This document shows positions 904 through 17,399 of a DNA stretch of 22,841 nucleotides, piece after piece. Every line of letters begins with the position of its first letter. Within the stretch, counting starts at the first letter, position 1. A program made the translations under genes and the position numbers. The notes under the pieces were generated by a model that had not been told where the DNA came from, did no database searches, and was given only the letters and a program-made list of their open reading frames with translations. The DNA lies in the IMG/VR virus record IMGVR_UViG_3300037560_000184, positions 1 to 22,841 of that record; one strand, written 5' to 3'. The stretch comes from a virus.

Positions 904-1917
904 TCACAGCCCGTCATTGCAGTATTCCGTAATGCGCGGCAAATCTTTATTCCTGATGTCGTTTTCTCCGTCAATTCCAAGTGTTTCCAGCATTTTCGCG
1001 ACATTGGTCCCATTTTTACTAACATCCATTAATAGCTCTTCGGCTTTCTTCTTTGGAACCTTAGCTTCTGGGTCTTGAGGAGGGACGGCTGTTTCCTCTT
1101 TAGTTGCAGTGGTTTTTTTCTTGGAAGATTCACTTTTATTTGCCTTCATGCGCTCTTCCAAATCTTTAGCGCCGCCTTTTTTGTCTTCAACACCAGAGGA
1201 AAAAGCCATTTCAACGGTTGTCTCACCATCTTTTATTGCTGTGGCCAGACCTTTCAAGATAAGAAGTTCTTCAAGTCCGATGTCTTCAACTCCTGAGACT
1301 TCAAGTTTTTTGCAAATCATTTCAGGAGTCGCGCCAAATTTCTGCAAATATACAATTGCGTCACTCCTGCGATTAGAAAGAGTCTTAGCGTCTCCCATGA
1401 CCGTTTGTCTTGCCGCTTTATACATGTCATTCCATAGGGCTTTTGGGATACCTTTCAATACAGCATTCCTGTGTGCTATTGAACAAGCGGCGTTTGCAGT
1501 AACGCCTATCATGTCCGGTTTGAATTTTTTTCCGTTTTTATCGACAATTCTCCGCTTTACCTCGTATTGGATGGCTGTGTTTTTTTCAAGATCATAGAAC
1601 ATTCCCTGAGCTACGATAAAATCTCCATCCTCCCCTAAAACCTTTGAGCCAGAACGACAGTTCCCCCATGAGGTAGCAATAATTTCAGCAAATCGGGCCG
1701 ATGGACCTTCAATGGTCTTTCCGGCTCTTGGGAGTGCGTATATGCAATCCTGAGCAACCTCTTCAGTTAGAGTGACCAAATCAAGACATTCTGACCTGAA
1801 AACCTTTATTGATCTGGGGTACCTTTTTGCAGTTGACACTTGTGTGTCTATTTCTGAGCTTTGCGCTAAGGGTGCGACTGAAGAACATTCTTCCCCTTCT
1901 AAAATTTCTGGATTCAT
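904..1917 (-). CDS. conserved phage protein next to RecE-like nuclease; candidate single-strand annealing protein
   Basis: This is a 337-residue protein with a strong ribosome binding site (AAAGGAAGG) before the ATG at 1917. Residues about 40-200 form the conserved body: GKTIEGPSARFAEIIATSWGN (split here only for position, about 67-87), a VKRRIVDKNGKKF stretch and AACSIAHRNAVLKGIPKALW. A second block reads LQKFGATPEMICKKLEVSG...GLEELLILKGLATAIKDG. The C-terminus (about 250-300) is charged and disordered-looking. It directly follows a RecE-like nuclease and a Rad50-like ATPase. That is the usual place for a RecT/Erf/Sak-type annealing protein, so I infer that role from position. I did not recognise RecT or Erf signature residues. 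It could instead be a scaffold-free replication or recombination accessory protein. Confidence 0.6.
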   Translation of the reverse strand: MNPEILEGEECSSVAPLAQSSEIDTQVSTAKRYPRSIKVFRSECLDLVTLTEEVAQDCIYALPRAGKTIEGPSARFAEIIATSWGNCRSGSKVLGEDGDFIVAQGMFYDLEKNTAIQYEVKRRIVDKNGKKFKPDMIGVTANAACSIAHRNAVLKGIPKALWNDMYKAARQTVMGDAKTLSNRRSDAIVYLQKFGATPEMICKKLEVSGVEDIGLEELLILKGLATAIKDGETTVEMAFSSGVEDKKGGAKDLEERMKANKSESSKKKTTATKEETAVPPQDPEAKVPKKKAEELLMDVSKNGTNVAKMLETLGIDGENDIRNKDLPRITEYCNDGL

Positions 1918-1935
1918 ACGAACCTTCCTTTCTTT

Positions 1936-2748
1936 TTAATTATCTTTTAAATGATTAGGTGTAAATACATCTGTAGCGCCAGCATTTTGATAATGGGGAT
2001 AAAACCCTTTATCTCTGCATTCTTTTTCAATTCTCAATAGGCGGTGGACTTCTTTAGATTGTCGCTGTATGTAGTCTGGATCAATAACATAGACTTCTGT
2101 TCTATGAGGAGGGGTAGGCTCAGTTGCAACAAGAACAAAGCCATTAAATTCTTCATTTGTTGCCTTGCTAATCCCTTCCGTATAAAAAGCGCCCTGCCTC
2201 GCATATCCAAACTTGTCGATTGACCTTCTGAAGCCATAATCAGAAACATCATTGCTCGTTTTGAAATCAACTAACAAGCGATATTGCTTACCTGGGTTCC
2301 TATCTGGGCGGCATTTACATAAAATGCCGGTTTCTTTGTCTTGCCAAATAACTGTTTGTTCGGACTTTCCGTCTTGTAAATATACACTTGCAGTTGGATG
2401 GGAAAAAACTGCATTTTTAATATTTACAATATTGGCATAATCGCCCTCAAATATAAGAGTTTTTTTCAAATTATCGGCCTGATGACCTGCCCATATTTTG
2501 GAACTTCTTGTGCATTTCGGTATAACTGCATATTCTTTCAAAAACGTCTCTTCGCCTTCCAGGACATAGGTATGTGCGGCCCTCCCTATCTGCATGGCCG
2601 GTGTATCTTTCATTGGGACATGAACATTCGCCGGACACTTATCCAGTCGCCCCAATTGCGTATTAGAAACAATATGTCTCATCCCTTCGCCGTGATACTC
2701 GGCGATTGAGATATTGTCATAAATGCCCGGTTTGTATTCTTTGATCAT
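1936..2748 (-). CDS. RecE-like PD-(D/E)XK exonuclease (DUF3799-type)
   Basis: This 270-residue nuclease is predicted to resect double-stranded DNA ends for phage recombination. Visible motifs follow the RecE C-terminal / DUF3799 order: GRAAH at residues 55-59, a conserved acidic residue in KSEQTVIW near 130, CKCRPDR at 144-150, the catalytic VDFKTS at 160-165 and YARQGAFY at about 182-189. These give the D...D-x-K plus Q pattern of the PD-(D/E)XK fold. The length matches the stand-alone nuclease domain rather than full-length E. coli RecE. The start overlaps the stop of the ATPase gene by ATGA, implying translational coupling. It would act with the ATPase before it and the putative annealing protein after it. 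Confidence 0.88.
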   Translation of the reverse strand: MIKEYKPGIYDNISIAEYHGEGMRHIVSNTQLGRLDKCPANVHVPMKDTPAMQIGRAAHTYVLEGEETFLKEYAVIPKCTRSSKIWAGHQADNLKKTLIFEGDYANIVNIKNAVFSHPTASVYLQDGKSEQTVIWQDKETGILCKCRPDRNPGKQYRLLVDFKTSNDVSDYGFRRSIDKFGYARQGAFYTEGISKATNEEFNGFVLVATEPTPPHRTEVYVIDPDYIQRQSKEVHRLLRIEKECRDKGFYPHYQNAGATDVFTPNHLKDN

Positions 2749-4181
2749 GTGGATTCTTCCCCTTCTGCTGAGCTGTCCGTTGCTTTCGCAGTCTTTACGG
2801 CTTTGCGTGCAACTTCCTGATCTTCGCGCTTAAGAACCTCTCCGTCTTCAATTACAATCCCCACTTTTCCGGTTTCGTCAACTTTTTCAATCCAAACCTG
2901 ATAGCCATTATCTTTAACCATTTCCTTAATAATTTGCATATTGGCAGAGTCAAGCAGAGATCCATCCATAATACGTAATACACGGAGCTTAGGGTTAAGG
3001 GCCATCGCCATTGAAAGCGACACTTTGAGCCTCTCAGAGGACGAACACTGGCAAAAAGGAATGCCTTTGTAGGTTACGCCCTCATCGTCAAAAGAAAGGC
3101 CCTCAATCGGAAATTTGGCGGCTTTGATAGCTTCTGTTTTTTTATCATCAAATACCTCAAGGTTTCCGGTCAAAACTTCACTCTGGGTTGTCTTTTCGGA
3201 AAGCATTTTTTTGAAGACTTCACTTTTTTTCTTCTCTCGGACATTTGCATTAATAATCTCCAAATTTTTGAGTTTTTCGGAAAAACTGTCCATGTCTGGG
3301 TCAATAAGATTTTTAACTTCTTCTTCTGAAACTCTGATTTTGTTTATGCTCGTTACAATTGATAAATTTATTTCTGCTATTTCCTCATTTAAGCCTTTGA
3401 TTATCTCTTCCTTGAGCCTTTTCCTTTCATCTAGCCCTCTCCGGTTTTCGTGTTCATCTTCCAGATTTTCCCTTTTTGTATCGTTCTCAGTTTTGGTCGT
3501 CTGTGCTTCTTCTTGTTCTAATAGCACAGTAGTTGTGCTTGTTTCTTCATCTGGTGTGTCTACTGGTAGTAGAGGCGTTTCATTAATCTGAATTTTAAGA
3601 CTCTTAATATCTCTATTTAGGTCTTTTCGATTTTCAAAAATAATATTCCGTTCTTTTTCCCATTTTTCCAGGTCAAAATCAATGTTATCGAGGCCAAATA
3701 AAATGTCTTTTTGTTTTTTGTCAGGCATTTTGGAAAACGATAAAGGATCAAAACTGAAATTTCCAATTAAACTATCCAGGACAGCTTGAGGGCTTTCAAG
3801 CGGCTTTCCGGGTTTATCTTTGCTCTCAACAGTAATATACGTTTTGTGGTTTGCGGTCCATCTGCGGGTAACAATCATATCTCCCATGTCTATTTCTATC
3901 TTGGATGATTTTTGACCGTCCCTTATAGGCCGCAATAACCCCTTTCTTGCTTCTCCACCTCCAATAGTTACAAAGATGGCATCCAATACAGAAGTTTTCC
4001 CTTGCTCGTTCTTGCCACTGATAATGACAGTGTTTTCATCACCCGGTTTAATGGTAATGGCTTTTATTCTTTTGAAATTTTTTATCTTCAGTTCAACAAT
4101 TCTGAAGCCGCTTTTCGCTAGTTGTTTTGCATGCCATTCTGGATCATTCTCCATCTGTTGTACTTGACTATTCTCTTCCAT
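2745..4181 (-). CDS. Rad50/RecF-like AAA ATPase (SMC-type), short form
   Basis: The 478-residue protein has both halves of an SMC/Rad50-type ATP-binding cassette. The Walker A GKNEQGKTS is at residues 56-64, after the typical LKIKNFKRIKAITI strand. The signature-like SSSERLKVSL starts near 380, and a Walker B-like VLRIMDG ends near 407. The usual DE pair is replaced by DG, so hydrolysis may differ. Between the halves, about residues 170-330, lies a charged short coiled coil, far smaller than cellular Rad50. A strong AAAGGAG ribosome binding site precedes the ATG. It is coupled to the RecE-like nuclease. Such pairs occur in phages and probably resemble SbcCD/Rad50-Mre11 in division of labour, which is inference. 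Confidence 0.88.
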   Translation of the reverse strand: MEENSQVQQMENDPEWHAKQLAKSGFRIVELKIKNFKRIKAITIKPGDENTVIISGKNEQGKTSVLDAIFVTIGGGEARKGLLRPIRDGQKSSKIEIDMGDMIVTRRWTANHKTYITVESKDKPGKPLESPQAVLDSLIGNFSFDPLSFSKMPDKKQKDILFGLDNIDFDLEKWEKERNIIFENRKDLNRDIKSLKIQINETPLLPVDTPDEETSTTTVLLEQEEAQTTKTENDTKRENLEDEHENRRGLDERKRLKEEIIKGLNEEIAEINLSIVTSINKIRVSEEEVKNLIDPDMDSFSEKLKNLEIINANVREKKKSEVFKKMLSEKTTQSEVLTGNLEVFDDKKTEAIKAAKFPIEGLSFDDEGVTYKGIPFCQCSSSERLKVSLSMAMALNPKLRVLRIMDGSLLDSANMQIIKEMVKDNGYQVWIEKVDETGKVGIVIEDGEVLKREDQEVARKAVKTAKATDSSAEGEEST

Positions 4182-5351: not shown

Positions 5352-5765
5352 TTATTTTTTCTCCTCTTCAAGCAATTCGTATCTGCTTATTTCTTCTATG
5401 AGTTCGGAAACTTCACCAACAGGGATGGCTGTCTTTTCTGAGATTGTACTTATGTCGCCCTTCTTGAGATAACCATAGACATCATTGAGCTGTATTGTGT
5501 GGATGGTGCCTTTTAGTGAGGCATCCAGTAGTGTTAAGTCGTCAGGGCCTTCGCTTGTCAGGCAGATAAATGATAATGCGTTATGGATTTGTTTTTTCGC
5601 AAAGATTACATTTTTATCTGCTTTCAAAATGGAAGTCACCTGACGGCGCATTACTTCAGCGTCACTTGTTTTAATGCCTGCTATTGTTTCAAGGGAGTCC
5701 CTCAAACTTTTTACTTTATCTGAAGGTAATTGCAGTGTGTAGAATTTGTTAATGGCGTCAGTCAT
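5352..5765 (-). CDS. hypothetical protein, 137 residues, helical
   Basis: The start at 5765 overlaps the stop of the upstream gene by ATGA and has AAAGGA upstream. The product is mainly helical. Its C-terminal part, about residues 95-135 (VYGYLKKGDISTISEKTAIP...VGEVSELIEEI), looks like a small winged-helix or HTH-type domain because of the helix-turn-helix spacing and the ISEKTAIPVGEVSELI segment. DNA binding is therefore possible but unproven. Its stop lies just upstream of the DUF7694-like gene, whose ribosome binding site is contained in the last codons of this gene. Confidence 0.65.
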   Translation of the reverse strand: MTDAINKFYTLQLPSDKVKSLRDSLETIAGIKTSDAEVMRRQVTSILKADKNVIFAKKQIHNALSFICLTSEGPDDLTLLDASLKGTIHTIQLNDVYGYLKKGDISTISEKTAIPVGEVSELIEEISRYELLEEEKK

Positions 5766-6124: not shown

Positions 6125-6601
6125 TTATGCTTCCTCTCTGAATTTTTTTAAATACTCCCCGAATCCATCTTTTTCTAATTCTTCTAAGACGGATAAGATG
6201 GAAGCATTTTCAGGTTTCATGATTGATTCCCAACATAGGCGGTGGATAGCTATTTGTCCCATTATGGCCCATTGTTTTGTGGAAAATGATTCTCTTTTTT
6301 TTCTGCGGATAAGTTCAAAGAAAAAATCATGGTTTTCGCTATAATTTTTTGCGTCACTCAGGTTTGCGTTTCTCAGGTTTGCGTTTCTCAGGTTTGCGTT
6401 TATCAGGTTTGCGTTTATCAGGTCTGCGTCACTCAGGTCTGCGTTTCTCAGGTTTGCGTCACTCAGGTCTGCGTCACTCAGGTCTGCGTTTCTCAGGTTT
6501 GCGTCACTTTTCACGGCTGCCTCTATCGCCAGCCGAAAATTGTCGGTTTCTATGGAAAATAAAATGTTGCCGGAAAAACGGTGTTTGATTTCAAATTTCA
6601 T
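6125..6601 (-). CDS. pentapeptide-repeat protein with conserved C-terminal helical domain
   Basis: The 158-residue product starts at an ATG with AAGGAGAG 8 bases upstream. Residues 34-83 are ten tandem pentapeptides of the form A(N/D)L(R/S/I)(N/D), predicted to fold as a right-handed quadrilateral beta-helix of about two and a half turns. The C-terminal domain, about 85-158 (ENHDFFFELIRRKKRESFST then KQWAIMGQIAIHRLCW), is a type often joined to such repeats in phages. Some pentapeptide proteins (Qnr, MfpA) mimic DNA and bind gyrase; this one is shorter, and its target is unknown. It is the first gene after a promoter and structured leader. Confidence 0.85.
   Translation of the reverse strand: MKFEIKHRFSGNILFSIETDNFRLAIEAAVKSDANLRNADLSDADLSDANLRNADLSDADLINANLINANLRNANLRNANLSDAKNYSENHDFFFELIRRKKRESFSTKQWAIMGQIAIHRLCWESIMKPENASILSVLEELEKDGFGEYLKKFREEA
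6353..6502 (-). repeat. ten tandem 15-bp units coding for pentapeptides
   Basis: Ten near-identical 15-base units of the type TCAGGTTTGCGTTTC (+ strand) encode the beta-helix. Units differ at only a few positions, so identity at DNA level is higher than the protein needs. This favours copy-number change by slippage or unequal recombination. Confidence 0.85.
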
Positions 6602-6630
6602 TTATAGGCTCTCCTTGTCGAAAAAAAAGA

Positions 6631-6741
6631 ATGGCAGGGCGCAAGGTAAGACAAATAAAAAGCGATCGGCAAAAAAGCAATAAATTTGGCCGTTGGCCCT
6701 GCCATAAAAAATATATTGAGTATTACTTTTTTGCCGTTCAT
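6631..6741 (-). ncRNA. candidate structured leader RNA with interleaved stems
   Basis: Downstream of the promoter at 6776-6748 the leader contains, in transcript order, arm A (6736-6726), arm B (6705-6696), arm A' (6677-6667) and arm B' (6640-6631). A/A' are perfect 11-base complements (CGGCAAAAAAG with CTTTTTTGCCG). B/B' are perfect 10-base complements (ATGGCAGGGC with GCCCTGCCAT). The A-B-A'-B' order allows either a pseudoknot or two competing stems. A run of eight U residues (6628-6621) follows B', so the B/B' stem resembles a terminator. A small GGCC-AAC-GGCC hairpin (6698-6688) overlaps B. The structure has not been tested by folding or covariation. Confidence 0.45.
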
Positions 6742-6747
6742 AATTTA

Positions 6748-6776
6748 AATATAAAACAAAAGTTTTTCGTTGTCAA
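6748..6776 (-). promoter_or_regulatory. sigma70-type promoter for the recombination operon
   Basis: TTGACA at 6776-6771 and TATATT at 6753-6748 are separated by exactly 17 bases, with transcription expected to start near 6741. It lies in the gap between the lipoprotein gene and the pentapeptide gene and reads into the structured leader. Confidence 0.7.
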
Positions 6777-13062: not shown

Positions 13063-13263
13063 GCATTTATTTTACTCTTTTTTAAATTAATTTCTAAATC
13101 ACGTTTAATCAATGAGTTAGGGTGTTATTCTTTTTAAAGTTTTTTCTGGGGAATTTGAGATAGAGAATCTTCCATGACAATGTTAATTATTGTTCCCTCA
13201 ATTGTGGAGGGAAAAATTAACATGAATCAAACATACTGACGCACTACCAATTTACGTCACCAC

Positions 13264-13293
13264 TTGACAATTAACGGCACTTAAGTATATATT
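13264..13293 (+). promoter_or_regulatory. rightward sigma70-type promoter for the packaging genes
   Basis: TTGACA at 13264-13269 is followed by TATATA (13286-13291, 16-base spacer) or TATATT (13288-13293, 18-base spacer). Transcription would begin near 13300 and run into terS at 13363. Confidence 0.6.
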
Positions 13294-13305
13294 TGTAGAC
13301 ATAGT

Positions 13306-13318
13306 GACAATAATTGTC
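13306..13318. promoter_or_regulatory. perfect 13-bp palindrome, candidate operator
   Basis: GACAAT-A-ATTGTC lies just downstream of the expected start of the rightward transcript. The same GACAAT half-site overlaps the -35 box at 13266-13271, so one regulator could bind both. Confidence 0.5.
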
Positions 13319-13362
13319 CGTTTTAGTTGGTAATTGTTGGTGTCTGATTGAGGTAGGGAATA

Positions 13363-17039: not shown

Positions 17040-17399
17040 ATGACTGAAGAAAATAAAATCATAGCACTATCCAATATTGGCAGGGTTCTGGAAGATATTC
17101 AAACAGAGTTCATTGATCAGTTGGGCAAAGCGACAAGCAATGAGATGTCTGCCCCATCCGTTACAATATACTCTGTTATGGCGGGAATTGTTCAAATCCG
17201 TTTTGACTGGAAATGGGCCGGTGAAAGGTATGGAGGGATTTTTAATCTTCCTCTGAACAATTCCCGCAGTCCTATGTTCTACAAAAACCACTACCAAGAG
17301 ATTATAGACAAAATGTGCAGGAAAATAATAGACGAAGTATGCAGGAAAATAGCTGAAGACTTTAGAAGGAAAACAAGCAATGTTAAGAACACCGATTAA
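17040..17399 (+). CDS. hypothetical protein, 119 residues
   Basis: The product has a helical N-terminus (IGRVLEDIQTEFIDQLGKAT). A beta region follows (APSVTIYSVMAGIVQIRFDW then KWAGERYGGIFNLPL), and the C-terminus is helical with repeated CRKI segments (MCRKIIDEVCRKIAEDFRRK). The start follows the palindromic GGAGG site. The end overlaps the portal start by 20 bases. No family is recognised; being next to the portal suggests a virion assembly or early structural role. Confidence 0.7.
   Translation: MTEENKIIALSNIGRVLEDIQTEFIDQLGKATSNEMSAPSVTIYSVMAGIVQIRFDWKWAGERYGGIFNLPLNNSRSPMFYKNHYQEIIDKMCRKIIDEVCRKIAEDFRRKTSNVKNTD

Follow-up and report, generated by a model that had tools for sequence, protein, structure and literature searches.

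In a phage fragment from a 22.8-kb virus record, the leader of a leftward operon carries two perfect inverted repeats with interleaved arms, followed by a U8 tract and the first clear gene. On the predicted folds, the best single reading of this arrangement is a terminator/antiterminator switch with two competing structures, to which we attach a probability of roughly 40%. That figure and the likelihoods worded below for the other readings are judgements rather than computed probabilities, and all of them rest on one leader sequence, a single case.

Layout of the leader and its operon

The window, i.e. the whole stretch of DNA analysed, is a phage fragment with leftward genes up to ~13.07 kb and rightward genes, among them terminase and portal, from 13.36 kb. 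The closest terminase relatives of this phage share 41% identity with it, and there is no close relative among the matches. The leader is read from the minus strand, where a promoter-like site is followed by the stem arms in the order A-B-A'-B', the U8 tract, a Shine-Dalgarno sequence and a pentapeptide repeat gene. The sigma-70-type promoter (TTGACA-17-TATATT, 6748–6776) has its -35 element TTGACA at 6776–6771 and, after a 17-nt spacer, its -10 element TATATT at 6753–6748, bearing out the consensus -35 and 17-base spacing reported by the initial annotation; the spacing places the predicted +1 at about 6741. Promoter sites of the 11-of-12 class number two in the window (6776 on the minus and 13264 on the plus strand) against 0.67 expected, and the second precedes the rightward genes. 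Several overlapping inverted repeats surround this second promoter (TTGACA-18-TATATT) in the interval 13170–13330 between the leftward and rightward genes, for example 13180–13191/13212–13223, 13189–13199/13207–13217 and 13266–13281/13303–13318; the region is possibly an operator or a two-way terminator.

The perfect repeats of 11 and 10 bp had been annotated in the same interleaved order, and both were recovered in the minus-strand leader. The 5' arm of stem A (6721–6736) pairs with A' (6667–6682) through a perfect 11-bp core, CGGCAAAAAAG/CTTTTTTGCCG (6736–6726 with 6677–6667), which extends to 16 bp with one G-U pair. Stem B consists of 10 perfect pairs, seven of them G-C, between its 5' arm (6696–6705) and B' (6631–6640), ATGGCAGGGC/GCCCTGCCAT, 6705–6696 pairing with 6640–6631. 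The span from A to B' is 106 nt, and the loop enclosed by B/B' measures 55 nt, or less when an imperfect extension of the stem is included. Two bases 3' of B' lies the terminator-like U8 tract (6628–6621), as annotated ahead of the pentapeptide gene; the window's leftward half has no other run of at least eight T on its sense strand. A simple terminator scan that considered only loops of up to 8 nt did not list stem B with U8 among its terminators. In the predicted A state a further element, CUUACCUU (6643–6650, minus strand), pairs with the Shine-Dalgarno region, and in the predicted B state part of it would extend stem B. The longest perfect inverted repeat in the window scan, of 14 bp, lies in a rightward gene (17181–17267).

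The first clear gene 3' of the leader encodes a pentapeptide repeat protein (6601–6125, minus strand; PF00805, E 6.3e-20), and its Shine-Dalgarno sequence AAGGAG was placed at 6611–6616 from sequence and folding. About ten 15-bp tandem units lie within the gene (6361–6510). The leftward genes 3' of the leader also encode small proteins, an ATPase of the RecF/SMC type, a DUF3799/exonuclease VIII-like protein and a 337-aa member of PHROG 3657; the earlier label of a recombination operon is a fair one. Their spacing suggests that the leftward genes after the leader share one transcript.

Predicted folding and the proposed switch

For a transcript that starts at the predicted +1 (6741), stem A would be complete at ~6665 and stem B possible at 6631. 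Once the transcript reaches U8, nested folding yields near-equal ensemble energies, -28.1 kcal/mol for the A state and -28.9 kcal/mol for the B state; equilibrium folding at this point gives B a share of ~0.8, and stem A has a head start. With more downstream RNA the balance returns to A (0.96 at 6560), with CUUACCUU now paired to the Shine-Dalgarno region. Blocking the first 17 nt from pairing shifts the fold to B, and when the 5' arm of B is covered as well, neither stem forms. The Shine-Dalgarno bases are mostly paired in all computed cases, in the A and B states alike, and the leader is therefore a poor fit to simple on/off control.

In the switch that we favour, the leader would fold during transcription with two competing forms available to it. 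A/A' would form as soon as A' is transcribed, ahead of B', and would keep the 5' arm of B in its loop, a form in which RNA polymerase would read on, making A/A' the antiterminator. Were the 5' arm of A sequestered, whether by a ribosome on the leader frame or by a protein, small RNA or ligand, stem B would form immediately upstream of U8 and transcription would stop near 6621. We infer the termination, the switch and any trigger, and a ligand or protein partner is putative. This reading is favoured by where the interleaved perfect stems lie, after a good promoter and ahead of the first gene, by the U8 just two bases past B', by the near-equal predicted energies of the two states and by the shift to B when the first 17 nt are blocked. 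Against it stand the search for homologous leaders, which turned up none to show covariation, the 55-nt B/B' loop, which is unlike those of usual intrinsic terminators, the pairing of the Shine-Dalgarno region in both states, a fold only moderately better than that of shuffled sequences (z of about -2, with values of -2.1 and -1.9) and a pseudoknot that, by a hand estimate, may close both stems at once.

Coincidence, coding and other readings

The interleaved perfect stems are unlikely to be a product of chance, given that interleaved 11/10 pairs were absent from all 5000 sequences obtained by dinucleotide shuffling of the leader. That two unrelated repeats and a U-run merely came together in AT-rich DNA is distinctly unlikely, even if interleaved 11/10 pairs turn up somewhere in ~1% of shuffled versions of the window (3 of 300) and also in other phage loci (14 pairs, at fewer than 14 places, in 1.93 Mb), the folding z is moderate and no relative with a conserved leader turned up. 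Single repeats of at least 10 bp are not rare in the window (9 against 4.2 expected). The location between promoter and gene, together with U8, lowers the likelihood of coincidence, and the 1.93 Mb of other loci, a rough yardstick because many of them exceed the window in G+C content, holds no second example: none of its 94 interleaved 9/9 pairs has a T6 within 4 nt after B'. A different account of the same DNA starts from coding. The initial annotation was right about the leader elements and overlooked an open frame of 47 codons that runs through the whole leader (6741–6598, minus strand); its ATG falls at the predicted +1, and its TGA overlaps the ATG of the pentapeptide gene as ATGA, with a similar overlap elsewhere in the operon (5762–5765). 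A serious rival, though fairly unlikely, is that the leader is mainly a small gene or leader peptide, translated leaderless and coupled to the pentapeptide gene via ATGA, with stems that are incidental or opened by the ribosome. The codon score of the frame is intermediate between those of real genes and spurious frames (at the 15th percentile for real gene pieces, above 85% of spurious frames), and since most of the pentapeptide gene's start region is base-paired in the predicted structures, translational coupling could help. Against such a gene, the ATG at 6741 has no Shine-Dalgarno sequence, the peptide has no homologue in Pfam, PHROGs or phage records, its hydrophobic middle is readily produced by U-rich RNA, and shuffles stay open over the same length in 5% of cases for one given frame and in 17% for any of three. 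Nor are the stems a by-product of the peptide, because the interleaved 11/10 stems appear in none of 3000 versions of the overlapping frame recoded synonymously, and the amino acid sequence thus leaves them unexplained; 3 of 300 such recodings fold as well as the leader.

The leader may hold a genuine RNA structure, a genuine coding frame, or both. A combination of the two, in which a pseudoknot-capable interleaved terminator/antiterminator carries a leaderless coupled frame and the position of the ribosome governs both whether transcription terminates and how accessible the next start is, seems quite improbable. It is also unlikely that both stems coexist as a long H-type pseudoknot serving stability or translation control rather than a two-state switch. 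Loops of 15, 13 and 26 nt would give such a fold enough room, and a rough hand estimate of -32.3 kcal/mol, against -25.2 and -26.9 kcal/mol for the single nested folds, suggests that it may be favoured, although the estimate depends on a hand-set penalty of the Dirks-Pierce type and ignores a hairpin lost in the A loop; a pseudoknot would, moreover, leave U8 unexplained. The energies of the A state, the B state and the pseudoknot (about -32 kcal/mol) are all compatible with the earlier proposal of a switch or a pseudoknot, whereas the parallel that it drew to the HK022 put RNA is weak. Both are structured RNAs early in a phage transcript, and the place of the leader directly after its promoter would suit an RNA that targets RNA polymerase and thereby suppresses terminators further along the operon. 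But put RNA is ~70 nt long, forms two consecutive stem-loops and binds the zinc-binding domain of the RNA polymerase beta' subunit (PMC9378689); the leader does not share this stem arrangement, its stems interleave over 106 nt with a U-run after them, and it has no Rfam match, all of which makes a put-like antiterminator very improbable.

Known systems and the search for relatives

Judged by its predicted folds, the leader appears to work most like a transcription attenuator. As in attenuators and transcriptional riboswitches, an early pairing that would be protective is predicted to compete with a late one, which a U-run follows, ahead of the first gene; the leader differs in a stem order that leaves a 55-nt terminator loop and in having no recognised aptamer or protein-binding site. 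An Rfam search of the leader returned only matches far below the gathering scores, in agreement with the annotation, which had recognised no known riboswitch class. H-type pseudoknot leaders, of which the SAM-II and preQ1 riboswitches are examples, share the A-B-A'-B' topology near a start codon, while the stems of the leader are much longer and lack an Rfam match. A literature search of titles and abstracts gave no match for pseudoknotted attenuator leaders in phages or for leaderless leader peptides.

No homologous leader was found via relatives of the pentapeptide protein, the terminase or the methyltransferase, or via the stem-B pattern. The relatives of the pentapeptide protein (L002–L042), many of which share the MKFEIKHR start, have upstream DNA unrelated to the leader, and the relatives of the terminase (~41% or less) and the methyltransferase (53%) carry neither leader nor operon. 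Scans with the ATPase, the DUF3799 exonuclease, orf137 and the 337-aa protein yielded no relatives, and genome contigs yielded two terminase relatives at 26–27%. The stem-B pattern GGCAGGGC...GCCCTGCC, a loose one, occurred in at least 120 stretches, with no leader-like match among those compared by blastn. Pentapeptide proteins with the conserved MKFEIKHR start recur in many otherwise unrelated viral contigs (L002–L025) with differing upstream DNA, as if the gene moved as a small module. For the 337-aa protein and the ATPase (window 904–4181), the best named phage relatives among the matches listed are Microcystis phages (Mae-JY30 at 47% and MaeS at 43.5%), possibly a clue to habitat or to gene exchange; four gaps in the Microcystis phage relatives of the recombination proteins contain no interleaved stems.

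The leader is a single case, with no counterpart seen in other sequences, compact, and carried by a phage without close described relatives. If the favoured reading of a terminator/antiterminator switch is true, it would represent an RNA-based control point, possibly one sensed by the ribosome, placed before a phage operon with recombination genes.
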